From Candidatus Enterocloster excrementipullorum (GTDB lineage: Bacteria; Bacillota; Clostridia; Lachnospirales; Lachnospiraceae), in contig DWWT01000070.1 in the NCBI GenBank assembly GCA_019119575.1, positions 1 through 52,239 of the forward strand: DNA of 52,239 bases. Direction: 5' to 3'. The position numbers and the translations under genes were made by a program. This document shows, piece by piece, positions 10,078-21,074 of the stretch; positions within the stretch are counted from its first letter, which is position 1; the number at the start of each line of letters is the position of its first letter. The notes under the pieces were generated by a model that saw nothing but the letters and a program-made list of their open reading frames with translations, had not been told where the DNA came from and did no database searches.

Positions 10078-11373
10078 CTAGTTCAGAGGCATGATCAGAT
10101 TTGGCAGGAACATAACGATTTCCGGAACATATGTAATCACCAGAAGTACGCCTACCATAACCAGGAGCTGATGCCACAGAGTCTTGCACAGACGCTCGAT
10201 CGGAATGCCGGATACCGCAGAACCCACAAACAGCGTGCCTCCCACGGGAGGGGTAATCAGTCCGATTCCCAGATTCAGAATCATCACTACGCCGAAGTGC
10301 ACCACATCCATGCCGGCAGACTGCGCGATAGGAAGAAGAATGGGAGTAGCCACCAGGATAATGGCGGACATATCCATGATCGTTCCCAGGAACAGCATGA
10401 TCAGATTCAGGATCAGCATAATCGCATATTTATTGGAAGTCAGCCCCAGGATGGCATCCGCAATCATCTGCGGCATCTGCAGATAGGTGAGCAGCCATCC
10501 GAATACCTGGGAGGTGGAGATCAGGATCATAACGATCGCCAGGGTTCCCAGCGCACGCTCGAGTACATGCCATGCCTCAATGAGCGTCAGTTCCTTGTAA
10601 ACAAAGAATCCTACCATCAAGGACCACACCACGGCCAGGGCCGCTGATTCCGTAGCGGTTACAATACCGGTAACCACGCCCACCACAACGATCAGCAGAG
10701 TAACCAGGCCCCAGAACGCGTCGACAATCGCTCTTACCGCGTTCTTCAGATTAAAGGGAGAGCCCATAGGATAATTGTGCTTCTTTGCCATAAAGTAGCA
10801 GTATACGGCCAGTGTAAGCCCCAAGGAAACACCCGGAATAATTCCTCCCAGGAACAGTCTTCCCACGGACACGCCGCCGGCCACCATCGCGTACATAACC
10901 ATGTTGTGGCTCGGAGGGATCAAAAGGCCCTGTACGGAACTCGTCATCGTCAGGTTCGTGGCGAAGCACTCATCGTATCCCTGCTCCTTCATCATGGGAA
11001 TAATGATGGAGCCGAGAGCTGCCGTATCTGCAGTAGAGGAACCGGAAATTCCGCCGAAGAACATGGAGTCCACGCAGTTTACCATCGCCAGGCCGCCGCG
11101 CAGCCACCCCACCAGAGCGTCCGCCAGCTTGATCAGCCGGTTGGAAATTCCGCCGGCGCCCATAATCTCACCGGCAACAATAAAGAAAGGAACCGCCATC
11201 AGGGTAAATACGTTTACGCCCTTTACCATCAACTGGGCGATCTGCATCAGAGGCAGCCCAAGGTAGGCAGTAGTCAATATACTGGAGATGCCGATCGCAA
11301 AAGCAATAGGCACCCGGCCAATCAGCATTACAAAAAAGGATACGACCAATATCAATACTGCTGTAGAATTCAT
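10078..11373 (-). CDS. dctM: TRAP transporter large permease (DctM)
   Basis: 431 residues, the normal DctM length, almost entirely hydrophobic with about 11-12 predicted membrane helices. Typical DctM features are FGGISGSSTADTAALGS around residues 90-106 and PPSHNMVMYAM shortly after, then a C-terminal PPVGGTLFVGSAVSG. This subunit forms the sodium-coupled transport path of the tripartite importer. Its start overlaps the last four bases of the small-permease gene, a standard coupled arrangement. Confidence 0.95.
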   Translation of the reverse strand: MNSTAVLILVVSFFVMLIGRVPIAFAIGISSILTTAYLGLPLMQIAQLMVKGVNVFTLMAVPFFIVAGEIMGAGGISNRLIKLADALVGWLRGGLAMVNCVDSMFFGGISGSSTADTAALGSIIIPMMKEQGYDECFATNLTMTSSVQGLLIPPSHNMVMYAMVAGGVSVGRLFLGGIIPGVSLGLTLAVYCYFMAKKHNYPMGSPFNLKNAVRAIVDAFWGLVTLLIVVVGVVTGIVTATESAALAVVWSLMVGFFVYKELTLIEAWHVLERALGTLAIVMILISTSQVFGWLLTYLQMPQMIADAILGLTSNKYAIMLILNLIMLFLGTIMDMSAIILVATPILLPIAQSAGMDVVHFGVVMILNLGIGLITPPVGGTLFVGSAVSGIPIERLCKTLWHQLLVMVGVLLVITYVPEIVMFLPNLIMPLN

Positions 11374-11957
11374 CCCCCGTACGCCTCCTTTATCTTCTCG
11401 CTCTCCTCATCGTCCATCTTGGACTCTTCAACCAGTGCCTTCGCCTGGGCCGCAAGAGTATCCTCCTCCAGAGTAACGCCTCTGCGGATCCGGTCAATGC
11501 AGTTGATAAAGCGCTCAAGCTCCATCAGGCACATGGCCACTCCCGCGATCGGGCAGGCGATATACAGCCAGGAAGACTTGATTCCCACACCGGTAATCAC
11601 ATTCCTGCCGGCCAGCTCGGTAAACTGGGCTCCATAGATAATCATGAAAACGCCAAAACCGAAAATCAGCATCTGGGCAAATCCTCTCAGCACGCAGATC
11701 ACTTTCTTCGGAACCAGAAAGTCAATCACCTGCATACGGATATGCGTGTCCTTGCGGATCGCCAGGGCTGCCGATACCAGAGACATGTAAACCATGCACA
11801 GAAGCACCACAGGCTCTCCCCAAGCCATAGGCGTCTTCAATACGTACCGGTTTACAACCACGGCAAAGCAGATAACAACCATGCCTACAAACATGATCTG
11901 ACAAGTCACCATAAAGAACCGGTAGACAATGTCAAAAAATTTGGTTACACTTTTCAC
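11370..11957 (-). CDS. dctQ: TRAP transporter small permease (DctQ)
   Basis: 195 residues with four membrane segments, matching DctQ, the small subunit that holds DctM and receives the binding protein. The charged tail after the last helix (KMDDEESEKIKEAYGG) is cytoplasmic. I chose a GTG start (followed by KSVTKFFD) because GAGGAGG lies at the right distance; in-frame ATG codons 48-51 bases upstream lack an RBS and would put the LacI-type operator inside the coding region. It is the first gene of the sugar-acid operon. Confidence 0.9.
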   Translation of the reverse strand: MKSVTKFFDIVYRFFMVTCQIMFVGMVVICFAVVVNRYVLKTPMAWGEPVVLLCMVYMSLVSAALAIRKDTHIRMQVIDFLVPKKVICVLRGFAQMLIFGFGVFMIIYGAQFTELAGRNVITGVGIKSSWLYIACPIAGVAMCLMELERFINCIDRIRRGVTLEEDTLAAQAKALVEESKMDDEESEKIKEAYGG

Positions 11958-11978
11958 ATTTACCCTCCTCTTCTTGCT

Positions 11979-11992
11979 CTGAAACGTTTTAG
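11979..11992. promoter_or_regulatory. LacI-type operator, site 1
   Basis: CTGAAACGTTTTAG is a 14-bp near-palindrome with a central CG and one mismatch, the typical shape of LacI-family operators. It lies about 10-20 bases downstream of the expected transcription start of the TRAP/uronate operon, a position suited to blocking transcription. The protein most likely to bind it is the LacI regulator at 8.9-10.0 kb. Confidence 0.65.
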
Positions 11993-12006
11993 ATCTTGTT
12001 GCCATC

Positions 12007-12035
12007 ACATTAGCATATTATCCTATCTTTGTCAA
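12007..12035 (-). promoter_or_regulatory. Main promoter of the sugar-acid operon
   Basis: Minus strand: a perfect -35 TTGACA (12030-12035), a 17-base spacer and a weak -10 TAATGT (12007-12012). The region around it is very AT-rich (12.0-12.2 kb). Transcription would start near 12000 and run about 45 bases to the dctQ start, crossing operator site 1. Confidence 0.5.
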
Positions 12036-12141
12036 TGAACATCGCATTTAAATTATATTTTTGTCATTTTTGTCAAAAATTCTTTTCATTATTTGTGCTA
12101 TATTTACTAACTATCTTTTTGTATTCTATATTTAGTTTTCA

Positions 12142-12151
12142 AAAACGTTTC
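12142..12151. promoter_or_regulatory. LacI-type operator, site 2
   Basis: On the minus strand this reads GAAACGTTTT, identical over ten bases to the core of site 1 and about 160 bases upstream of it. Two identical cores flanking the promoter suggest a repression loop. It also lies just upstream of the divergent YcxB-like gene promoter. Confidence 0.5.
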
Positions 12152-12172
12152 ATATAATACGCAGATCTGTTC

Positions 12173-12201
12173 TTGCCTTTTCCGTTCTCTTTTGTTATAC
12201 T
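12173..12201 (+). promoter_or_regulatory. Promoter of the YcxB-like gene
   Basis: -35 TTGCCT (12173-12178), 17-base spacer, -10 TATACT (12196-12201). Together with the two operators and the minus-strand promoter this accounts for the 311-base gap between 11958 and 12268. Nothing else is evident there beyond high AT content. Confidence 0.5.
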
Positions 12202-12268
12202 TTTTTAAAAGCCGTTTCACCCAAAGCTGCTTTTTCACAAATTCATGCCGCAATAGGAGAGAATACAC

Positions 12269-12793
12269 ATGAAAGTTCAATCTGTCACCATTCAGTCAAC
12301 CATTGATGAGCAGACCTTCCGGGATTTCAGCTATTTCCACAATCTCACACTCGGAAGCCGCATGACAGGTTTTGTCGTGAGTTCCGCTCTTTTGGTCATC
12401 TTTGGTGCGGTCAACCTTTTGACCGGCAGCCTTCTCCTGTTCGTTTTATGCGTCGGATTCGCTGTTTTTATTCCCCTCCTTTATTATTTGTTTTACCAGA
12501 GAAGCCTGCGCAACCAAATCCGGGCCAATCAGCTGCATGAGCCCCGCACTGCTTATACCTTGACTCTGGATGATAAGGGGGTTACCGCCTCCACGGAAAA
12601 GGAACGCATGGACTATCCCTGGAAAAATATTTTCCGGGTCTACCGAACCCAAAAGTATATTTATGTCTACATCATCAAAAATCGGGCCTTTATTATCCCT
12701 CTGAAGGATGTCAAGGGCGCCACGCCGGATGCTTTGTGGGATTTGATTTGTTCCCACACAGACCGGACAAAAGTGTTTGCCAGAGCCAGATAG
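12269..12793 (+). CDS. YcxB-like membrane protein
   Basis: 174 residues. Two adjacent hydrophobic segments (about residues 32-50 and 53-72) are followed by a soluble domain with the pattern YTLTLDDKGVTAS, MDYPWKNIFRVYRTQKYIYVYI and AFIIPLKDV. This matches the YcxB-like C-terminal domain found in many Firmicutes membrane proteins. The function of the family is not established. It is a single gene with its own promoter and an RBS (AGGAGAG), and ends at a strong bidirectional terminator shared with the convergent hydrogenase gene. Confidence 0.78.
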   Translation: MKVQSVTIQSTIDEQTFRDFSYFHNLTLGSRMTGFVVSSALLVIFGAVNLLTGSLLLFVLCVGFAVFIPLLYYLFYQRSLRNQIRANQLHEPRTAYTLTLDDKGVTASTEKERMDYPWKNIFRVYRTQKYIYVYIIKNRAFIIPLKDVKGATPDALWDLICSHTDRTKVFARAR

Positions 12794-12821
12794 CTGCGTA
12801 CCGTACGGTACACGCAAAATA

Positions 12822-12868
12822 AACCCCCGAAGGAGACGGCCTCATTGTGAGGCGCTCCCTCGGGGGTT
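12822..12868. terminator. Bidirectional terminator between ycxB-like and hydrogenase genes
   Basis: AACCCCCGAAGGAG pairs with CTCCCTCGGGGGTT around a loop holding a smaller GGCCTC..GAGGC hairpin. It is followed by TCTGTTTTTA on the plus strand and TTTATTTTG on the minus strand, so it can stop both convergent transcripts. Confidence 0.85.
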
Positions 12869-12887
12869 CTGTTTTTACTTTTTACAT

Positions 12888-14339
12888 TTAATGTCTGTGC
12901 ATAGAAAACTGATCCATCGGATACTTTTTCAGATTCTCCAGCACTTTCCGGTCGTCCGCCTGGGCAATGAGCTGATCCCTGGCCTTCTTGGCCTCCATCT
13001 CTGTCTTGTGCTTGCTGGGGCCGCCCACACAGCCGCCCACACAGGCCATTCCTTCCACAAAGTCCTCAGGAAGACGGCCCACCTTCATGAGCAGAAGGGC
13101 CTTCTTGCACTCTGCGGCGCCATTGCACCGGGCCACCTTGATGTCCGTATTTTCATCCATCTCCTTTAAGCACTCCAGCACAGCAGCCGTCACGCCGCCT
13201 CCGTTTCCAAAGCGCTTCCCAAAGGTAGAGCTCTCCTGGTAGTCATTCTCCGCAGGCTGCAGCTCCACACCCTTGGCCCGCATCATGGCCCGCACTTCCC
13301 CGAAGGTCAGCGCGTAGTCCGCGTTGTCCTTAATATTCAGATCCAGGCTCTCGCTCTTCTTCGCCGTGCAGGGGCCGATGAACACCGTCACTATCTCCGG
13401 ATCCTGGCTCTTCAGCATACGGGAGACCGCACACATGGGGGAGACTGTCGTGGACATATTGTCGAGCAGCATGGGGAAATGCTTTTTGATCATATTTACA
13501 AAGGCCGGGCAGCAGGACGTAGTCATCTTTTTGCCCTCCTTGTAGGCCTCCGCCCACTCTTCCGCCTCATAGGCTGCTGTCATATCTCCGCCCAGGCCAA
13601 CCTCAACCATATCGGCAAAGCCAACCTGCTTCAGCGCGATCTTCCAGCTCGCCATGGTGATATCCGGGCCGAACTGACCTTCCGTAGCCGGAGCCACCAT
13701 AGCCACTACCTTCTTTCCCGCATTGATTAAGCGGATCACATCCACCATAAAGGTCTTGGAACCGATGGCACCGAAAGGACAGCTGTGAATGCATGCCCCG
13801 CATTCAATACATTTCTTTTCATCTATCACGCAGATACCATACTCATCGTAGGTAATCGCGTCCACCGGGCAGGCTTTTTTGCAGGGACGCTCCAGATGAG
13901 CGATCGCATTGTAAGGACATGCCTGAGAGCACTTTCCGCACTCTTTGCATTTGCCGGGGTCAATATAGGCGTGCTCGCGGCCCATAGAAATAGCGCCAAA
14001 ATTGCAGGAATTCTGGCACGCCTTTCCCATGCACTTGCGGCAGTTGTCCGTGACAATATAGGACGCGATGGGGCACTCCTCGCAGGCCGCGTTGATGACC
14101 TGCACCACATTGCTGCTGTCCATACCCGCCGGGCACTTGCCCTCTGCCAGCCGAACTCTCTGTTTAATAATCTCTCTTTCCTTATAGATGCAGCATCTCC
14201 AGGTTGCCTGGGGCCCCGGGATCATTCGAAACGGAATCTGGTCTCTCTCTTCCTCCAGGTTCCCTTCCCAGGCGGCCTTCGCGACCTCGTAGAGAACATC
14301 GTGCTTCAGACGCAGGATCGTTGCATCATTGGTTACCAT
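12888..14339 (-). CDS. [FeFe] hydrogenase, stand-alone group B-like
   Basis: 483 residues. The N-terminal part has several ferredoxin-like cysteine clusters: C100, C103, C108, C112; a set around 131-141 (CKECGKCSQAC); C153, C157; and CIECGACIHSC at 177-187. The H-cluster domain follows with its three loops: TSCCP at 274-278, GPCTAKK at 322-328 and MACVGGCVGGP at 431-441. The third loop lacks the GGGQP ending of classical group A enzymes, and no diaphorase subunits lie nearby, so I place it with the ferredoxin-linked group B enzymes that probably make H2 during fermentation. The start is the ATG after GAGGAGG. A palindromic repeat lies in its leader. The maturases HydE, F and G are not in the window. 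Confidence 0.88.
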   Translation of the reverse strand: MVTNDATILRLKHDVLYEVAKAAWEGNLEEERDQIPFRMIPGPQATWRCCIYKEREIIKQRVRLAEGKCPAGMDSSNVVQVINAACEECPIASYIVTDNCRKCMGKACQNSCNFGAISMGREHAYIDPGKCKECGKCSQACPYNAIAHLERPCKKACPVDAITYDEYGICVIDEKKCIECGACIHSCPFGAIGSKTFMVDVIRLINAGKKVVAMVAPATEGQFGPDITMASWKIALKQVGFADMVEVGLGGDMTAAYEAEEWAEAYKEGKKMTTSCCPAFVNMIKKHFPMLLDNMSTTVSPMCAVSRMLKSQDPEIVTVFIGPCTAKKSESLDLNIKDNADYALTFGEVRAMMRAKGVELQPAENDYQESSTFGKRFGNGGGVTAAVLECLKEMDENTDIKVARCNGAAECKKALLLMKVGRLPEDFVEGMACVGGCVGGPSKHKTEMEAKKARDQLIAQADDRKVLENLKKYPMDQFSMHRH

Positions 14340-14387
14340 ATTCTTTTCCTCCTCAAACTTATCTATCCCCTGAAAATCCATTAACCA

Positions 14388-14474
14388 GAGCGTATTTAAA
14401 AATTGCGTTCTGCCAGATGAGCGTTCCGCTTTGCGGGACGCCGAAGACAAGAATGCTCTTTCAAACACCTCCGG
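14388..14474. repeat. Palindromic interspersed repeat, copy A (hydrogenase leader)
   Basis: The left end GAGCGTATTTAAAAA and the right end CTTTCAAACACCTC are degenerate inverted ends. The centre carries CCAGATGAGCGTTCCGC and a TTGCGGGACGC arm that pair. The same layout and core recur at 32066-32157, and a shorter related palindrome lies at 19598-19664. The copy occupies the 5' leader between the hydrogenase start and a candidate -10 box (TATAGT, minus strand, 14497-14502), so it would be transcribed and fold. Confidence 0.65.
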
Positions 14475-14544
14475 AACGCTTCACCAACAAGAATCTACTA
14501 TACCAGACGTGAAAATGCAAGTATAAAATGGGGTACATTCGCAT

Positions 14545-14606
14545 GGGGCGTCCCCCCGATGCGAAAAAGCAGGCGCTCACGGGCTTTCAAGCAAGCTTGA
14601 CGCCCG
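14545..14606. repeat. 62-bp direct repeat, copy 1
   Basis: 62 bases beginning GGGGCGTCCCCCCGAT and ending TTGACGCCCG, repeated with a single visible mismatch at 14694-14755. This copy holds the left arm of the terminator-type hairpin but lacks the matching right arm. The 455-base gap from 14340 to 14794 is made up of the palindromic repeat, these two copies and two hairpins; I see no gene in it. Confidence 0.8.
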
Positions 14607-14656
14607 CAGGCTGCCCTTGGGGACCTTCGCTCCGCTTGTTTCTTCCGCACGGCTCT

Positions 14657-14688
14657 CTTCTGGAGCTGCACTGTGGCAGCTCCAGAAG
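14657..14688. repeat. Perfect 13-bp hairpin
   Basis: CTTCTGGAGCTGC and GCAGCTCCAGAAG pair perfectly around the 6-base loop ACTGTG. It lies between the two copies of the 62-bp repeat. There is no T run, so it is more likely an RNA structure or repeat-element part than a terminator. Confidence 0.7.
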
Positions 14689-14693
14689 CATCG

Positions 14694-14755
14694 GGGGCGT
14701 CCCCCCGATGGGAAAAAGCAGGCGCTCACGGGCTTTCAAGCAAGCTTGACGCCCG
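14694..14755. repeat. 62-bp direct repeat, copy 2
   Basis: Nearly identical to 14545-14606, differing at GATGGG versus GATGCG. Here the right arm of the large hairpin follows directly, so this copy forms most of the terminator at 14710-14774. Confidence 0.8.
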
Positions 14756-14774
14756 GGAGCGCCTGCTTTTTCCC
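14710..14774 (-). terminator. Large terminator downstream of the HydS/phosphatase unit
   Basis: GGGAAAAAGCAGGCGCTC (14710-14727) pairs perfectly over 18 bp with GAGCGCCTGCTTTTTCCC (14757-14774). An inner hairpin is formed by GGGC..TCAAGC and GCTTGA..GCCC. The stem is A/T-rich at its base in both directions. It lies 20 bases after the phosphatase stop and would separate that unit from the hydrogenase gene downstream. Confidence 0.8.
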
Positions 14775-14794
14775 GCCGTGCGGACTTGGTGTCC

Positions 14795-15973
14795 TCAATA
14801 GTACGTTACGGTTACTTGCTTGCCCATGTCTTCTATTGCGCGCTTCAGCTGTTCCACCAGATTTTGGCGGATTCCCAGATCGAAGGGGAGGCTGGGGTTC
14901 TGGTAAGCGCTGTTGATGGCTTTGCCCACGTACAGGTGTACTTCCGTACAGTCCTCGATGAGAATTTTCGCCACCATAGATGCGCCGTTGTTCTTGTCCA
15001 GCTCTTCAAAAAACTCTTCGGATACCGTCTCGTTCTTCACATACCGCCGCAGAAGCTGCACCACCCGGTTTAAGGTAAGCACGCCTTCCGTCACAAGATC
15101 CACCCCGTCCATGTACGCAATGGGAGGGATCTCCGGATCTACATAATCCAAAGACACGTCAAGCCGCTTTCCCAATACCCGTGACACGATACTCGCGCTG
15201 GTTCCCCCGCATACAATTGTTTTTGCGGACGGATCCGACATAAAATCCCGCACCATCCGCCCGTCGTCATCCGGGTTCTTGGCAGGCCCGGTCATCAGAT
15301 GCACCGGCTTGCTGTCTATAATCCGCATACAGGCCACTGTGGTGTCATCTCCGGGGCGGAACTGATAGAGCTCGTCGCAGGCCCGGCTGATGGCTGCCGC
15401 CAGACGCATGGCGGATATCGTTACCTGGTACTGGCGCACCGCGTAATCCGCAATATCCTTCCAAAGCCATCCGAAATTCAGCAGATCACCCACTCCTGCG
15501 TGAATCGTCCCGTCGCTCATCAGGATCAGGGCGTCACCTTTCTGCACCTTAAAGCGATATTCATTGATGGACTTGCCCTGGATCACCCGGATGTTCTTGG
15601 GTATCTCCATAAGCATTCCGTTCCGTATAAAAATACAGCCCGGATTGTCATATTCCACCAGATATGCGTCTCCGTTGTGAAACACCTGAAGAATGCTGAA
15701 CGTGGAATAAGCGACCTGCCGAACCTGGCAGATGGGAAGCGTCTCGCTGATGGTATCCACACATTCCTCCAGCGTTGCCCCGTTCAAAAACATAGTTCCC
15801 AGAATCTTGGAGGTCAGGGTGGAAAGAATGTTGGCCTTCACACCGCTGCCCATACCGTCCGCCAGGATCATGATATGGGAATCCTCCGTGTGAAGGATCT
15901 CCACTTTGTCCCCGCAGAGTATCTCCGTAAATTTGTTCAGGCTTTTGTAGGCCACATCAACCGTAATCCCCAT
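14795..15973 (-). CDS. SpoIIE/PP2C-type serine phosphatase, partner of sensory hydrogenase
   Basis: 392 residues. The N-terminal two thirds are a PP2C-like phosphatase domain with metal-binding motifs ILADGMGSGVKA (about residues 34-45), ILMSDGTIHAG in the middle and PGDDTTVACMRI (about 220-231). The C-terminal third is conserved-looking but unnamed to me. No sensor or membrane segment is present, so its activity is probably controlled by a partner protein. The gene starts three bases after the stop of the HydS-like gene. PP2C-type phosphatases are known neighbours of group C sensory hydrogenases and are proposed to pass the H2 signal on. The target phosphoprotein is not in this window. Confidence 0.87.
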   Translation of the reverse strand: MGITVDVAYKSLNKFTEILCGDKVEILHTEDSHIMILADGMGSGVKANILSTLTSKILGTMFLNGATLEECVDTISETLPICQVRQVAYSTFSILQVFHNGDAYLVEYDNPGCIFIRNGMLMEIPKNIRVIQGKSINEYRFKVQKGDALILMSDGTIHAGVGDLLNFGWLWKDIADYAVRQYQVTISAMRLAAAISRACDELYQFRPGDDTTVACMRIIDSKPVHLMTGPAKNPDDDGRMVRDFMSDPSAKTIVCGGTSASIVSRVLGKRLDVSLDYVDPEIPPIAYMDGVDLVTEGVLTLNRVVQLLRRYVKNETVSEEFFEELDKNNGASMVAKILIEDCTEVHLYVGKAINSAYQNPSLPFDLGIRQNLVEQLKRAIEDMGKQVTVTYY

Positions 15974-15976
15974 GAT

Positions 15977-17914
15977 CTACCTCCCGCCCCCGGGCTTTTT
16001 CAGATCCGCGCTGCTTATGTGGACATAGCCCGCAGGCTTCCCGGAGGGCGCAGCACTTCCCACATGGACATATCCGGTCTTTCTCTGCTCTTCCTGACTC
16101 TGCGCTGTCATGACACCCGTTAAGGGAACCGCGCCGCTTCCCAGATGGACATTAGCCGGCGCCTTCTCCTCCTCTGCCGTGTATCCCCCGTCGCTTCCGT
16201 CATCCAGCAGGGACTGGCAGAGCTTCGTCAGAGTTGTCTTTGTCTCCGCCGTGGTCTCACCCAAAAGACCCGCGATCTCCTGCGCCACCATCATCTGCTT
16301 ATGGATTACCTTTTGGGCCAGATCAATGGTCTCCAGATTCTTCTCGTAATCCTCTCTGGCCTGCTCCTCCTCCTTGGTAATATCAATAAAGGTAGCGAGA
16401 ACCGCATTCTCCTTCTCTATGTACACAATATTTTGAAGCGTAGACAGATGATACTCGGGGTAGTTCACCCGTTTACCATGGATATTCTGGTGGGTTTCAA
16501 ATACCCATTGAAAATCTGCCGGATCAATGAATTCATACAGGTACATCTGCAGAGCTTCCGACCGGGTTTTGCCGAAATATTTCTCCCCCACATCGGAATA
16601 CTCCAAAATACGCATGTCTTCTCCGACAATCAGCACGATGTTGGGCGAGGTTTCCATCACCAGGTTTGCCATGGATTCTGCCTTTTCATGCATAAAGGGG
16701 ATACACATGCTCACCTCCGCCTTATGCTGGAACACAGCGATGGCTTTGTCCCGGCAGGTGGGATAACCGCAGGCGCCGCAGTTGAGTTCATCCTCAGGCC
16801 TAGTCTTGTTGGTCATCCGCAGGATTTCCCGAATCTGTTCCTCGGTGGGCATGGGATCCTTGGGCGACCGGTCCACAAACCGCTTCCGGAAGGACACCTT
16901 TTCCCACACCGGCTCCATATCCTTCCCGCTGGCAGGCTCCCGCGCAATGGCTTCCTCCATATCCAGCTTCACCTTAAACCGGGAAATGGACTCGTCATTC
17001 ACCGTGGGGCCCTTAATGCAGCCGCCCGAGCACATATTCATCTCGATAAAGCAGCCCTTGATCTCTCCCCGCGCCATGCTCTTGCACAGATCAATACAGT
17101 TGGACACCCCGTGAACGTAAAATTTCCTGTATCCGTCCTTCTCCGGCTCTGTGGCCAGCACGGAACTCACCACCCCGTTTGTCACCGGATAAAGCCGGTT
17201 AACCTTGGGATCAAAACGGGTAAACGGCATATCCTCGCAGTCTTCAATGACAATATTCTCCTCATCCAGCCAGCGGTTGATATCGTTGAAATTCAGCACT
17301 GCATCAATAAATCCCTGATGGCGCACATCCAGAGATTCCTTTTTCTTCGCAATGCAGGGGCCCAAGAATACCACCCTGACATCTCTTCCCAGCTCTTCCT
17401 TCAGCAGCTTGCCGTGAGCAATCATCGGGGACACTACGGGAGCCAGATAGGGAACCAGCTCCGGATAATAAATCTCTACCAGATCATTCACACTGGGACA
17501 GCATGTGGTAATGATATTCTCCATGGCATGTTCTTCCAGCAGACGGGCGTACTCTGCCGTCACAAAGGCCGCCCCTTCCGATGTCTCCCGCACATCTTCA
17601 AATCCCAGACGGATCAGCGCGCTTCTCACCTGCCCGATGGTCTTGTATTTTAAAAGGCCCATATAGGCCGGGGCAATGGAGACCACCACCCGGTCTCCCC
17701 TGGCAATAAATCCCTTTACCAAATCCAGGTCGCTCTTTAAGGTCTTGGCGGACTGCGGACATATTTTCAGGCAGTGGCCGCAGAGAATGCACTTATCCGG
17801 CATGATCACCGCCCGCTCGTCCTTTACCTGGATGGCTTTCACCTCGCAGTAGCGGACGCACTTGTAACAATGCTTACACTTGGTGGCCTTAAAGTCTATG
17901 ATCTCTATGCCCAT
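15977..17914 (-). CDS. Sensory-type [FeFe] hydrogenase with PAS domain (HydS-like, group C)
   Basis: 645 residues. Order of domains: two [4Fe-4S] ferredoxin motifs (C13, C16, C19, C23 and C42, C45, C48, C52), an H-cluster domain with TTCCPS, GPCIAKKKE and NMCSGGCIKGP, a four-cysteine Fe-S motif of the CGACGYPTC type (about residues 385-415), a PAS domain (about 430-540, with ILEYSDVGEKYFG), then a helical tail and a disordered end containing three repeats of a VHxGSxAxP-like phrase. This is the architecture of group C hydrogenases thought to sense H2. The ATG start was preferred over a TTG two codons earlier because of RBS spacing. It is followed by a PP2C phosphatase and preceded by a 2Fe-2S protein. 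Confidence 0.88.
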   Translation of the reverse strand: MGIEIIDFKATKCKHCYKCVRYCEVKAIQVKDERAVIMPDKCILCGHCLKICPQSAKTLKSDLDLVKGFIARGDRVVVSIAPAYMGLLKYKTIGQVRSALIRLGFEDVRETSEGAAFVTAEYARLLEEHAMENIITTCCPSVNDLVEIYYPELVPYLAPVVSPMIAHGKLLKEELGRDVRVVFLGPCIAKKKESLDVRHQGFIDAVLNFNDINRWLDEENIVIEDCEDMPFTRFDPKVNRLYPVTNGVVSSVLATEPEKDGYRKFYVHGVSNCIDLCKSMARGEIKGCFIEMNMCSGGCIKGPTVNDESISRFKVKLDMEEAIAREPASGKDMEPVWEKVSFRKRFVDRSPKDPMPTEEQIREILRMTNKTRPEDELNCGACGYPTCRDKAIAVFQHKAEVSMCIPFMHEKAESMANLVMETSPNIVLIVGEDMRILEYSDVGEKYFGKTRSEALQMYLYEFIDPADFQWVFETHQNIHGKRVNYPEYHLSTLQNIVYIEKENAVLATFIDITKEEEQAREDYEKNLETIDLAQKVIHKQMMVAQEIAGLLGETTAETKTTLTKLCQSLLDDGSDGGYTAEEEKAPANVHLGSGAVPLTGVMTAQSQEEQRKTGYVHVGSAAPSGKPAGYVHISSADLKKPGGGR

Positions 17915-17916
17915 AC

Positions 17917-18156
17917 TCAAAGTCTCCCCTTAATCTCGTTCTCGAAAAACTCCTCCGTATCCTCAGGTTTTAATGAATAGAGCTCTCCCTCCACGGTCAC
18001 ACAGACGCCGTGGTCGCAGTTGCCGGAACAGAAGGCCCCGTTCAGATCGACCTTGTCCGTAAGCCCATTCTCCGCCACCAGCTTCTGCAGCTTCTCGATA
18101 ATCTGCCTGGATCCCTTCAGATGACAGGCACTCCCAATACATATTGTTACTTTCAT
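17917..18156 (-). CDS. Small 2Fe-2S thioredoxin-like ferredoxin (NuoE-type)
   Basis: 79 residues with the thioredoxin-like [2Fe-2S] pattern C6-x4-C11 and C43-x3-C47 (CIGSACH and FCSGNCD), as in NuoE/HndA C-terminal domains. It is short and stands alone, so it is an electron carrier and not a full NADH dehydrogenase subunit. It is the first gene of a three-gene unit and its stop codon almost touches the HydS-like start. The start follows GGAGG. It probably carries electrons to or from the sensory hydrogenase. Confidence 0.86.
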   Translation of the reverse strand: MKVTICIGSACHLKGSRQIIEKLQKLVAENGLTDKVDLNGAFCSGNCDHGVCVTVEGELYSLKPEDTEEFFENEIKGRL

Positions 18157-18263
18157 CCCTTTGTTCCTCCACTTTTCGTGTTTTTAGGAGCCATCCGGGA
18201 TACACCCGGACAGACGCTATTTGCAGGGTTTTTGCTGCTGCCCAACCCCCAAAGCATAGATTC

Positions 18264-18292
18264 ATTATCTCATATTGTGAACTTTATATCAA
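18264..18292 (-). promoter_or_regulatory. Promoter of the 2Fe-2S/HydS/phosphatase unit
   Basis: Minus strand: -35 TTGATA (18287-18292), 17-base spacer, -10 GATAAT (18264-18269). The leader is about 100 bases. A weaker plus-strand candidate for the divergent importer is TATAGT at about 18335-18340 with a poor -35. Confidence 0.55.
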
Positions 18293-18390
18293 TAATATTT
18301 CTCAAATTTATTATAGAAATAGGGCCCCTTCTGTGCTATAGTTTAGGGAGTACCTGCAGCGCATGCTGGGGTAGAGAGGAGAGACGTATT

Positions 18391-19530
18391 ATGAAAAAAC
18401 ATATTTGTGTGCTGACGGCAGCCTTTCTCGGGCTTTCCGTCCTTTTAGGCGGCTGCGGCGGCCAGACCGGAGGGGCAGAATCCTCCCAGGCTCAGACATC
18501 CGCCCAGGCTCAGGAAGAGAGCCAACAGCAGGAAAGTGGAGTGAATGATTCCGGAGAATCCCAGGCTTCCGAAGCGGCCCAGACCGACGGCCAGTCCCAG
18601 GCAGACAGCGCCGGCGAGACCGAAGCCGCTGACCCAAACGCCATCCGGGTCGGCTCCTTAAACGGCCCTACTTCCATGGGGCTTGCGAAGCTCATGGACG
18701 AGCAGGCCGGCGGCGAAGCCTCCCAGTCATACGCTTTCACCATGGCCGGAAAAGCCGATGAGCTGGTTGGAAAAATTGCAAACGGCGATCTGGACATCGC
18801 CCTTCTGCCCGCCAATGTGGCCAGCGTCCTTTATTCCAAAACACAGGGCAATGTAAAAGTGATTGACATCAACACACTGGGCGTTCTCTATGTGGTCGCC
18901 TCCGATGACTCCATCAGCTCCATCAGTGATCTGAAAGGGAAAACCCTGTACATGACAGGAAAAGGCACCACGCCTGAATACGTGATGAACTATCTTCTGG
19001 AGGAAAACGGCCTCACTGCCTCCGATGTAACCCTGGAATTTAAATCCGAGGCCGCAGAGGTGGCTTCCGTTCTCAAGGAGGATCCCACAGCCATCGGAGT
19101 GCTTCCCCAGCCCTTCGCCACCGCTGCCTGCATCCAGAATGAAAACCTGAAAACCGTCCTGGATCTGACAGAGCAGTGGAATATCTTAAACGGCGACACC
19201 GGGAGCATGCTCGTCACAGGCGTCACCATTGTCCGCTCCGATTACCTGGCGGAAAATGAGGAGGCCGTAAAGCAGTTTATCGAAGATCATCAGGCTTCCG
19301 CCTCCTACACCCAGGAAAATCCCGCGGATGCGGCGGAGCTGGTGGCCGCTCAGGGAATCGTGGAAAAGGCAGCCATCGCCCAGAAGGCTCTGCCTTACTG
19401 CAATATCGTCTGCCTGACCGGCACAGAGATGAAGGATGCCCTGGAGGGCTATCTGGAGGTTCTGTTTGAGCAGGATCCCCAGTCCGTGGGCGGGAACCTG
19501 CCGGGCGAGGATTTTTACTACATTCCTTGA
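18391..19530 (+). CDS. ABC transporter substrate-binding lipoprotein (NMT1/SsuA-like), substrate unknown
   Basis: 379 residues. Lipoprotein signal peptide with lipobox LGGC (C22), then a Q/S/E/A-rich disordered linker to about residue 85, then a type 2 periplasmic-binding fold beginning IRVGSLNGPTSMGLAKLM. Segments such as KGKTLYMTGKGTTPEYVMNYLLEENG and ADAAELVAAQGIVEKA are typical of the SsuA/ThiY/NMT1 group that takes up sulfonates, thiamine precursors, nitrate and similar small molecules. The longer reading frame upstream is not used; the ATG after GAGAGGAG fits the signal peptide. It opens a three-gene importer operon divergent from the H2-sensor unit. Nothing in the sequence fixes the substrate. 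Confidence 0.88.
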   Translation: MKKHICVLTAAFLGLSVLLGGCGGQTGGAESSQAQTSAQAQEESQQQESGVNDSGESQASEAAQTDGQSQADSAGETEAADPNAIRVGSLNGPTSMGLAKLMDEQAGGEASQSYAFTMAGKADELVGKIANGDLDIALLPANVASVLYSKTQGNVKVIDINTLGVLYVVASDDSISSISDLKGKTLYMTGKGTTPEYVMNYLLEENGLTASDVTLEFKSEAAEVASVLKEDPTAIGVLPQPFATAACIQNENLKTVLDLTEQWNILNGDTGSMLVTGVTIVRSDYLAENEEAVKQFIEDHQASASYTQENPADAAELVAAQGIVEKAAIAQKALPYCNIVCLTGTEMKDALEGYLEVLFEQDPQSVGGNLPGEDFYYIP

Positions 19531-19546
19531 CTTTGATATGTATACC

Positions 19547-19588
19547 CTCCGCGCACAAAAGGGACACCCGGTTCCCCTGTACGCGGAG
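19547..19588 (+). terminator. Possible attenuator after the binding-protein gene
   Basis: CTCCGCG and CGCGGAG pair around an inner GGG..CCC hairpin, 16 bases after the stop codon. The stem is not followed by a T run (AATAAAAAC instead), so it is more likely an mRNA-stabilising structure or attenuator than a full terminator. Confidence 0.45.
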
Positions 19589-19597
19589 AATAAAAAC

Positions 19598-19664
19598 GGG
19601 CGCGGCCCAGAGTGCGTTTGAAGACAGCGGGAATACATATTCAAACGCACCCTAAGCCGCGCCC
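19598..19664. repeat. Palindromic interspersed repeat, short copy (inside ABC operon)
   Basis: An outer arm GGGCGCGGC/GCCGCGCCC and an inner arm GTGCGTTTGAA/TTCAAACGCAC make a 67-base palindrome between the binding-protein and permease genes. The GCGTTTGAA inner arm matches the ends of the copies at 14388 and 32066, so I group it with them although the central sequence differs. Confidence 0.6.
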
Positions 19665-19688
19665 CATTTTGCATTGAGGGTACTGGTT

Positions 19689-20426
19689 ATGAAGCAGCAC
19701 TTTACTTTAAGAAAATGTCTTATATGGCTCTTTTGGCTCCTTCTGTGGCAGGGGGCCAGTTTGGCTGTCTCCAACAATGTCATTCTGGTAGGGCCTGCTG
19801 AGATGCTGCGTTCCCTTCTTTTCCAGGCAGGGAACCCGTCTTTCTGGATCACTATCCTTCACTCCTTCGGACGGATCAGCCTTGGATTTTTGGCTGCCTT
19901 TGCGGCGGGCATCGCTGCCGGCAGCCTGGCCTATGCCCTTCCCTTCATTCACGAGCTTCTGGATCCACTGCTTTCCGCTGTAAAGTCCATACCCGTTGCC
20001 TCCTTTGTGATCCTGGCTCTCATCTGGATCGGCTCGGAGAACCTCTCGGTGTTCATTGCCTTTTTGGTTGTAGTTCCCATGATTTATTCCAGCACTCTGG
20101 CTGGCCTGAAAAGTGCGGACCGCAGGCTCCTGGAAATGGCCCGGGTATTCTCCATGCCCTTTTGGAAGCGGCTCCGTTTTATCTACATCCCCGCTGTCCT
20201 TCCCTATCTGATGAGCGGCTGCCGCACAGCCCTTGGCATGAGCTGGAAATCCGGCATCGCAGCGGAGGTCATCGGCATCCCCGGTCAGTCCATCGGAGAA
20301 CAGCTCTACTACGCCAAACTTTACCTGGACACCGCCGGCCTTTTTGCCTGGACCTTTGTGATCATTCTCGCAAGCTCCGCCTTTGAAGCCCTGTTTCTGT
20401 GGCTCCTGGGACGGATCCGCCGCTGA
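19689..20426 (+). CDS. ABC transporter permease (SsuC/TauC-like)
   Basis: 245 residues with five to six membrane helices and the permease coupling motif EMARVFSMPFWKRLRFIYIPAVLPYL (about residues 150-175, EAA-type), the site that contacts the ATPase. KSIPVASFVILALIWIG is characteristic of the SsuC/TauC/ThiX permease family. The ATG after GAGGG was chosen over a TTG five codons earlier. It is the second gene of the importer. Confidence 0.9.
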   Translation: MKQHFTLRKCLIWLFWLLLWQGASLAVSNNVILVGPAEMLRSLLFQAGNPSFWITILHSFGRISLGFLAAFAAGIAAGSLAYALPFIHELLDPLLSAVKSIPVASFVILALIWIGSENLSVFIAFLVVVPMIYSSTLAGLKSADRRLLEMARVFSMPFWKRLRFIYIPAVLPYLMSGCRTALGMSWKSGIAAEVIGIPGQSIGEQLYYAKLYLDTAGLFAWTFVIILASSAFEALFLWLLGRIRR

Positions 20427-20468
20427 TCCGGCGGCAGACTTTTATCGTAAGGAGGCAGATACCTGCTC

Positions 20469-21074
20469 ATGGAAATTATTATTCGTGATCTCTCCAAATC
20501 CTATGGAGGCCGCCCTGTTTTAAGCGGCCTGAACATGACCTTCACTTCTCAGTCCCCCTGCTGTCTCATGAGCCCTTCCGGCAGCGGAAAGACCACCCTC
20601 TTCCGCATCCTCATGGGGCTTGAGACAGCGGACAGCGGTTCCATACATTTCACGGACGACACAGGACGCACGCTGCCCGGGCGCCCCGGATTTTCCGTCG
20701 TCTTTCAGGAGGACCGGCTCTGCGAGGCCTTCACTCCCCTTGAAAATGTGCGGATGACCGCCGGGCGTTCCCTCCCGCCGGAACAAATCCGCAAAGAAAT
20801 GGCCCTCCTCCTTCCGGAAGAGAGCCTTGACCGTCCCGTATCCACTTTAAGCGGCGGCATGAAACGCCGCACAGCCCTCTGCCGGGCCATTCTCACACCG
20901 TCCTCCGTCCTGCTTATGGACGAACCCTTCACCGGGCTGGACGACGCCATGCGCCGCCAGGCAATCCGCTATCTCTTGGACCGCCTGGCTGGCCGCCTTC
21001 TTCTGCTGTCCACTCACTCCCAGGAGGATGTGAGCCTTCTCGGAGGGAAGTGCTTCCGCCTCTCTCATGGGTGA
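20469..21074 (+). CDS. ABC transporter ATP-binding protein (SsuB/TauB-like)
   Basis: 201 residues, somewhat shorter than the usual 240-260. Walker A PSGSGKTT (about residues 36-43), signature LSGGM (about 127-131), Walker B VLLMDEPF and an H-loop histidine in STHSQED. The Walker A is preceded by S where most have G. Spacing from AAGGAGG to the ATG is long (13 bases), so a CTG two codons earlier could be the real start. The last ten bases overlap the convergent dehydrogenase gene. It energises the importer. Confidence 0.9.
   Translation: MEIIIRDLSKSYGGRPVLSGLNMTFTSQSPCCLMSPSGSGKTTLFRILMGLETADSGSIHFTDDTGRTLPGRPGFSVVFQEDRLCEAFTPLENVRMTAGRSLPPEQIRKEMALLLPEESLDRPVSTLSGGMKRRTALCRAILTPSSVLLMDEPFTGLDDAMRRQAIRYLLDRLAGRLLLLSTHSQEDVSLLGGKCFRLSHG

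Follow-up and report, generated by a model that had tools for sequence, protein, structure and literature searches.

The hfs operon of the window

The DNA analyzed here, referred to as the window, is a 52,239-nucleotide stretch of Candidatus Enterocloster excrementipullorum (Clostridia, Lachnospiraceae; DWWT01000070.1, positions 1 to 52,239), which is contig C33 of an 81-contig, 3.18-Mb assembly that is 88% complete. Its minus strand carries four genes in the same direction, hfsA, hydS (also hfsB), hfsC and hfsD, the first three of them tightly packed, that encode a small iron-sulfur protein, a putative H2-sensing [FeFe]-hydrogenase, a phosphatase, and a second [FeFe]-hydrogenase. HfsA (17917..18156) is a 79-residue thioredoxin-like [2Fe-2S] protein (Pfam PF01257, 2Fe-2S_thioredx, 32.2 bits, cut-off 24.8); its ligand pattern CX4C...CX3C is present in 70/70 HfsA-matching open reading frames (ORFs), and its best match in the Protein Data Bank (PDB) is the C-terminal part of the alpha subunit of a bifurcating hydrogenase (7p5h). 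HydS (15977..17914) is a group C (PAS) [FeFe]-hydrogenase of 645 residues counted from an ATG, or 647 from a TTG start. After a gap of 3 nt and a GGAGGT preceding its ATG follows hfsC (14795..15973), the gene of a 392-residue SpoIIE/RsbU-type PP2C phosphatase (SpoIIE, 49.1 bits). The original prediction, made from the DNA letters, had described these three genes as a compact unit, and profile matches and ORFs agree with it on both products and positions; it had overlooked that the unit continues with hfsD (12888..14342), whose product, an [FeFe]-hydrogenase of group B1, scores 608 bits on TIGR04105 (cut-off 450). The hfsD ORF (14468-12888) opens with GTG, and the likely start at 14342 is deduced from the model match and the lengths of homologues. 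These genes are real: chance is excluded by their homology, by active-site residues that do not vary and by the constancy of their order.

The arrangement matches the published hfsABCD layout, which has been in print since 2009 (Shaw 2009, cited in PMC5707799), and fits the HydDB group C3, 'phosphatase-linked (putative)'. The layout and the group were thus already known; what is added here are counts of the pairing, a conserved segment at the end of HydS, and an extra domain of HfsC. In the mostly open-access literature covered, we found no publication on either the segment or the domain, nor one on the mechanism of group C3 or linking HydS with SpoIIE.

Conservation of the HydS-HfsC pair

Among 150 genomes sampled from the family, HydS (E <=1e-60) and HfsC (E <=1e-30) were each detected in 32, and the two sets of genomes are identical. 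Gene order was then compared in a 75-locus set made up of the window, all 34 other family matches and 40 class loci; the class search had given 71 rows, of which the surroundings of 53 besides the window were read and 17 were left out. HfsC directly follows HydS in 71 of the 75 loci. In two of the four exceptions (L044 and L049) HfsC is found about 1 and 3 kb further on, and in a third (L099, from genome G245) about 15 kb off on the same contig, while L138 (7288-11086) has tandem HydS genes with HfsC only behind the second. A further set of 80 named loci, the best 80 of at least 541 confirmed among 590 pattern matches, has HfsC next to HydS in 76, the misses being three contig ends and one displaced gene (L159); seven of these 80 HydS also belong to the 75-locus set, so the two sets are not independent. 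Twelve class loci were taken apart from the 75: in L139, L149 and L150 HfsC lies beside HydS, L148 is interrupted by a contig end, and the other eight (L140-L147) are fusions considered below. The PP2C gene is therefore conserved with HydS, in agreement with the original prediction. No fusion of HydS to PP2C was seen among the loci read; sensor and phosphatase are two genes.

The outer genes of the operon are less constant. HfsA adjoins HydS in 60/75 loci, and four of the 15 loci without an adjacent HfsA have HydA directly upstream of HydS instead. HfsD follows HfsC in 33/75, some of the other loci ending at contig borders. One locus has, beside a complete operon and on the opposite strand, a second HfsC-like ORF and a 178-residue HydS-like fragment (L160, 15399-17127).

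HydS as a putative sensory hydrogenase

By its cysteine motifs, PAS domain and tree position, HydS is a group C (M2f) putative sensory [FeFe]-hydrogenase. Its Pfam matches comprise Fe_hyd_lg_C (184.6 bits), the FeS domain PF04060 (43.5 bits) and Fer4 motifs. Two N-terminal 4Fe-4S motifs (C13/16/19/23 and C42/45/48/52) are invariant, as are the H-cluster cysteines C139, C187, C295 and C299 of the H-domain (residues 75-303; 17006..17692). These are followed by a C-terminal [4Fe-4S] motif, Cx2Cx4Cx16C (C379, C382, C387, C404; 16703..16780), with each cysteine present in 75/75 homologues, and by a PAS domain at about residues 405-511 (16382..16702). Although the PAS match in the window is just below the Pfam cut-off (21.4 versus 22.6 bits), PF00989 is matched at E <=0.001 by 28 of 34 aligned homologues, and an AlphaFold2 model has PAS-like secondary structure in this region, with block means mostly 87-94. 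The protein ends in a disordered tail (residues 573-645; 15980..16198; pLDDT <50) with three VH(L/V/I)(G/S)S repeats; mean conservation of residues 577-645 is 0.03, and by eye, among the 75 tails, similar repeats occur otherwise only in L036, from the same-genus genome G119.

The profiles of the catalytic classes score HydS far below their cut-offs (group B1 model TIGR04105, 205.6 bits, cut-off 450; group A model TIGR02512, 111.1 bits, cut-off 406). In a tree of 56 rows, among them HydA, HfsD and HydS, from which named reference sequences are absent, HydA (group A) separated on one side with support of 100/100 and HfsD (group B), including that of the window, with 96/98. HydS lies outside both, although its rows do not form one group there, the three most divergent of them standing apart from the others. 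An ordinary catalytic enzyme was considered and rejected on this placement, in keeping with the original prediction that the hydrogenase would not fall among the catalytic classes.

Two residues beside the H-cluster, Gly185 (Gly in 71/75 homologues) and Asn293 (Asn in 45/75, Ser in 25), are altered. Cys138, which by its position before the invariant ligand takes the place of the proton-transfer cysteine C299 of CpI, is kept in the window and in 55/75 homologues, and replaced by A, S, T or V in 20/75. Land et al. (PMC8163306) describe this residue as non-conserved within group C and not as missing throughout, and for that reason its replacement is no strict requirement of the group.

A conserved end segment in HydS

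Behind the PAS domain, residues 536-562 of HydS (VIHKQMMVAQEIAGLLGETTAETKTTL; 16229..16309) form a segment (KQM..AQEIA.LLGETTAETK) which we propose as the contact to HfsC. It is the most conserved stretch of the protein: over 75 homologues its mean conservation is 0.85, where the H-domain reaches 0.57 and PAS 0.46, and 11 of its 27 columns are invariant versus 11 of 229 in the H-domain. A strict pattern of the segment is found in 75 of the 80 named HydS, the remaining five being close variants; the three most distant HydS (L139, L149, L150) have it in diverged form, and it is retained in loci without HfsD. The structural model places a helix at residues 513-551, a turn at GETT and a second helix at 556-574, tentatively a hairpin.

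The eight loci set apart above (L140-L147) encode the same hydrogenase/FeS/PAS input as HydS, but fused to a sigma-54 activator and a helix-turn-helix (HTH) domain. Four were scanned, and all match Sigma54_activat (225-233 bits) and HTH_50; the other four carry the GAFTGA motif. The GETTAETK segment is missing from 8/8 of these fusions, and in the five genomes whose only such sensors are fusions the phosphatase is absent. That the segment is highly conserved in HydS paired with HfsC and missing where the same input is joined to a different output argues that it may serve as the contact with the phosphatase. Genes of hydABC type adjoin the fusions in six of the eight loci. The available portion of one publication (PMC12316311) contains nothing on fused hydrogenase sensors.

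HfsC begins directly with its phosphatase domain

The PP2C domain of HfsC occupies residues 1-221 (15311..15973), with D22, D39, D154, D209 and D210 invariant; judged by its fold and metal-binding aspartates the site is intact. The SpoIIE match spans only residues 33-218, and HfsC has no N-terminal linker of its own. In a correction to the original prediction, HfsC is more than its catalytic domain: residues 222-392 (14798..15310) form a conserved C-terminal domain of about 170 residues, which accompanies HydS in 58/59 class genomes. Searches of this part against Pfam, NCBIfam and PDB profiles gave only chance-level matches, and a named fold was accordingly rejected. Structure searches with HfsC were dominated by the PP2C domain, 3ke6 (RsbU-RsbW) aligning over residues 3-384.

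A proposed split PAS-PP2C switch

On the strength of conservation and pairing, we regard it as moderately probable that the operon is an hfsABC(D)-type H2-sensing unit in which PAS input and PP2C output are divided between two proteins and meet through the HydS end segment. HydS would bind H2 at the H-cluster, and electrons would then travel along its [4Fe-4S] clusters, HfsA serving either for exchange or as a reset path. A state change of the C-terminal [4Fe-4S]/PAS part would follow, in which the PAS domain would shift the succeeding helix and the end segment and thereby control HfsC. RsbU carries the signal through a helical linker before PP2C, and the same is predicted for RsbP, which has a PAS domain (PMC12143880). 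Because HfsC starts directly with PP2C, a helix of this kind could come from HydS instead, the end segment standing in for the linker of single-chain RsbP.

Published genetics, overlooked in the original prediction along with hfsD, the end segment and the extra HfsC domain, suggest a direction of control. In Thermoanaerobacterium, strains without hfsA or hfsB show an increase of about 1.8-fold in ethanol yield and of 2-3-fold in the adhE transcript; those lacking hfsC and/or hfsD make wild-type ethanol, single hfsC or hfsD deletions leave adhE unchanged, and an earlier deletion of the whole operon gave no substantial ethanol increase (Eminoglu 2017, PMC5707799). Expression of the HydS/HydA2 cluster of Ruminococcus albus is 111-fold lower in co-culture, and H2 sensing with a phosphatase was proposed (PMC6776011). 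Both studies point to a HydS that most likely holds HfsC back at low H2 and releases it at high H2, upon which HfsC would dephosphorylate a regulator and so raise adhE (ethanol formation) and hydA2/hfsD (ferredoxin hydrogenase). The role of redox link that had been assigned to the 2Fe-2S protein is less well supported: it gains from the likeness of the hfsA and hfsB deletions, although the former also lowers hfsBCD expression, and loses from the 15/75 loci where HfsA is not adjacent.

Several points weigh against this model. The end segment, the putative contact, is modeled at low confidence (block means 56-77). Genome G245 retains the segment even though its HfsC lies about 15 kb distant on the same contig (L099), and in genome G270 HfsA and HfsC occur divergent from hydABC with no HydS match (L254, 8996-10448). 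The proton-transfer cysteine in the HydS of the window means that slow turnover cannot be assumed. Deletion of hfsA in Thermoanaerobacterium also lowers hfsBCD expression 2-6-fold (PMC5707799), adaptive 'hfsB/C' disruptions have been mentioned (PMC13277313), and in T. thermosaccharolyticum hfsD alone raises ethanol yield given hydAB and nfnAB (PMC11837493), so that the hfsB effect need not act via HfsC. The leading kinase candidate, moreover, is missing from some of the genomes that have HydS, as set out below.

Candidates for the opposing kinase

No kinase is encoded beside the operon in the window, as had been noted, although APH-like or RsbW-like genes adjoin it in relatives. Elsewhere in the same genome, on contig C47 (L005, 5496-8814) and divergent from hydABC, a run of genes encodes a DRTGG protein (30.1 bits, cut-off 25.2), an RsbW-like ATPase (HATPase, PF13581, 43.3 bits, cut-off 27.4), a PAS-less hydrogenase that we label group D-like, a second DRTGG-like protein (22.0 bits, which is below cut-off) and lastly a PHP protein (37.8 bits, cut-off 26.4). 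This run is a candidate for a second H2-sensing unit; a histidine-kinase-like ATPase has been described next to the group D enzyme TamHydS (Land et al., PMC8163306). In L045 the DRTGG-ATPase run stands together with HfsA-HydS-HfsC, and in G245 it is linked to HfsC. The RsbW-like ATPase occurs in 25/32 HydS genomes versus 9/118 others (Fisher p 5e-15, kinship ignored). We consider this ATPase, in its cluster beside hydABC, probably the kinase that opposes HfsC. As an obligatory kinase it was rejected: its absence from 7/32 HydS genomes means that it is not the only one, and this too counts against the model as drawn.

In clusters of the adhE type, an APH-like kinase could take this part. With a PF01636 match of about 51 bits (cut-off 23.2), it is encoded immediately ahead of HfsA or HydS in 13/75 loci, in eight of the 13 directly after adhE (one adhE verified by Pfam), and it occurs in 20/32 HydS genomes compared with 32/118 others (p 3e-4). 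In Clostridium thermocellum, Cthe_0424, annotated as aminoglycoside phosphotransferase, is numbered between adhE (Cthe_0423) and the genes of an Fe-S protein (Cthe_0426) and a SpoIIE protein (Cthe_0427), here taken to be HydS and HfsC; its expression goes down along with theirs (PMC3848806). The genome of the window has an APH-like copy on C64 (56%), but the 19.5 kb around it contain no recognized hyd or hfs gene, and the association with HydS is weaker than that of the ATPase. In addition, APH-family kinases act mostly on small molecules. That the pair is a sensor and phosphatase as proposed, but opposed by the APH-like family rather than the RsbW-like ATPase, seems to us unlikely, if well short of negligible. 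Among frequent neighbors no STAS-type phosphorylated partner was recognized by eye, and no profile search for one was made.

Other readings of the operon

A somewhat less likely reading, which we consider improbable, is that HydS (HfsB) mainly restrains HfsD, either as its partner subunit or via expression, with the phosphatase minor or separate and the fermentation shift arising from HfsD activity. The sufficiency of hfsD in T. thermosaccharolyticum would be explained directly, as would the rise in benzyl viologen hydrogenase activity upon hfsB deletion (PMC5707799), and the window is among the 33/75 loci with HfsD after HfsC. Elsewhere HfsD does not take this position (some of those loci being cut by contig ends), whereas HfsC adjoins HydS in 71/75, and loci without HfsD still retain the end segment. 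We consider it very improbable that HydS is a hydrogenase with catalysis at a low rate, HfsA carrying its electrons and PAS and phosphatase only tuning it: the H-cluster cysteines are intact, the proton-transfer cysteine is widely kept and HfsA resembles a hydrogenase 2Fe-2S domain, yet HydS falls outside the catalytic classes, Gly185 and Asn293 are altered, conservation is higher in the end segment than in the H-domain, and HfsA is not adjacent in 15/75 loci.

Surroundings of the operon

A promoter-like site (TTGATA-17-GATAAT with TG; minus strand, 18264..18292) lies upstream of hfsA; it is a consensus match only, and the region 12600-18700 has nine such sites against 4.2 in shuffles. Between hfsC and the hfsD ORF are about 325 bp, compared with about 45 bp in G119. 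Within this gap (14545-14785) is a 62-nt direct repeat, its two copies 98% alike, with related inverted partners, and diverged partial copies are present on contigs C78 and C51. Divergent from the operon (plus strand, 18337-21074) are genes of an NMT1-like binding protein and an ABC permease, followed by an ATPase-like ORF. The pair of binding protein and permease is found beside HydS in 7/75 loci (the window and L036-L041).

A TnpB-like protein and RNA in sister operons

In 10/75 loci a TnpB/Cas12f-like protein of about 490-540 residues is encoded, in seven of them immediately behind HfsC and in the other three behind AdhE. Its TNB domain (PF07282) scores 28.8 and 29.5 bits in two copies (cut-off 26.3) and 21.7 in a third. 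A profile of the ten copies (E <=1e-20) detected, in 196 class genomes, ten loci, one per genome and all in a HydS-HfsC operon, and nothing in the genome of the window. In the twelve copies considered (L126-L131, L133, L134, L136, L137, L183 and L186), the first RuvC aspartate, placed by the motif GI[D]LG that we take to mark it, is replaced in every case (by S, G, A, T or V), and the protein is probably nuclease-dead as judged from this motif.

Downstream of the gene is a structured, pseudoknotted RNA in 12/12 copies (in L127, gene at 10958-12571 and RNA at 12577-12691). In the alignment 96.4% of cells are paired, versus 18-50% with partners slid, and 7/15 pairs have double changes; one measure of five (further pair types) is not above shuffles, of which 440/500 reach the same level. 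The weakest helix is the first one, in which 87% are paired and several gaps occur. A model built from the 12 copies recovers those 12 and none further in 88 sources; with 150 candidates scored per genome, it finds one copy behind the gene in each of the ten TnpB-like genomes, and none in the genome of the window. By eye, only a short stretch separates the RNA from a terminator-like hairpin. No guide match of at least 10 nt was found within the same locus, no Rfam family reached its gathering score in seven loci, and we found no publication on TnpB associated with hydrogenases.

In TldR proteins, which have dead RuvC domains and act as RNA-guided regulators, guides as short as 6 nt can work (PMC13418256). 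It is tempting to speculate, and we do so tentatively and somewhat against our own expectation, that HydS-HfsC forms a portable H2-sensing phosphatase switch to which quite different outputs have been connected: in one Clostridia lineage H2-dependent, RNA-guided control by a domesticated, nuclease-dead TnpB-like protein, and for the window an RsbW-like ATPase and DRTGG pair encoded elsewhere in its genome. If the protein is indeed an RNA-guided regulator, a class that has been studied in flagellin control (PMC13418256) would gain a member linked to H2.

Comparison with known systems

To the question of how group C hydrogenases pass on their signal, the present comparison contributes a candidate contact, an undescribed domain and two candidate kinase families. 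The operon is also of practical interest, in that hfs affects ethanol versus H2 yield in industrial thermophiles (PMC5707799) and an operon of this type probably affects H2 handling in the rumen (PMC6776011). Compared by description, hfsABCD of T. saccharolyticum has the same order of hfsA, hfsB (PAS hydrogenase), hfsC (serine phosphatase) and hfsD (ferredoxin hydrogenase) (PMC5707799), while the window differs in its repeat-bearing hfsC-hfsD gap of about 325 bp and in the 70-residue disordered tail of HydS. HydDB group C3 has the same group C architecture and an adjoining serine/threonine phosphatase, and the window is placed there by architecture and tree; neither the end segment nor the phosphatase C-terminal domain is described in the portion of that source available (PMC5037454). 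The R. albus cluster likewise combines a putative sensor, a phosphatase and a ferredoxin hydrogenase and is regulated with H2 level (PMC6776011, PMC5707799), whereas the window has no adhE or kinase beside the operon.

At the level of the proteins, HydS shares with TmHydS of Thermotoga maritima the H-domain, the Cx2Cx4Cx16C motif, the PAS domain and a Gly at the place of CpI M353 (PMC10055695, PMC8163306), but it differs at two other places, with Cys retained at that of C299 and Asn instead of Ser at that of M497. HfsC has the PP2C fold and metal aspartates of RsbU, RsbP and SpoIIE, of which RsbP receives its input from a PAS domain followed by a helix (PMC12143880). Here input and phosphatase are instead two proteins, the phosphatase lacking a linker and carrying an extra C-terminal domain.

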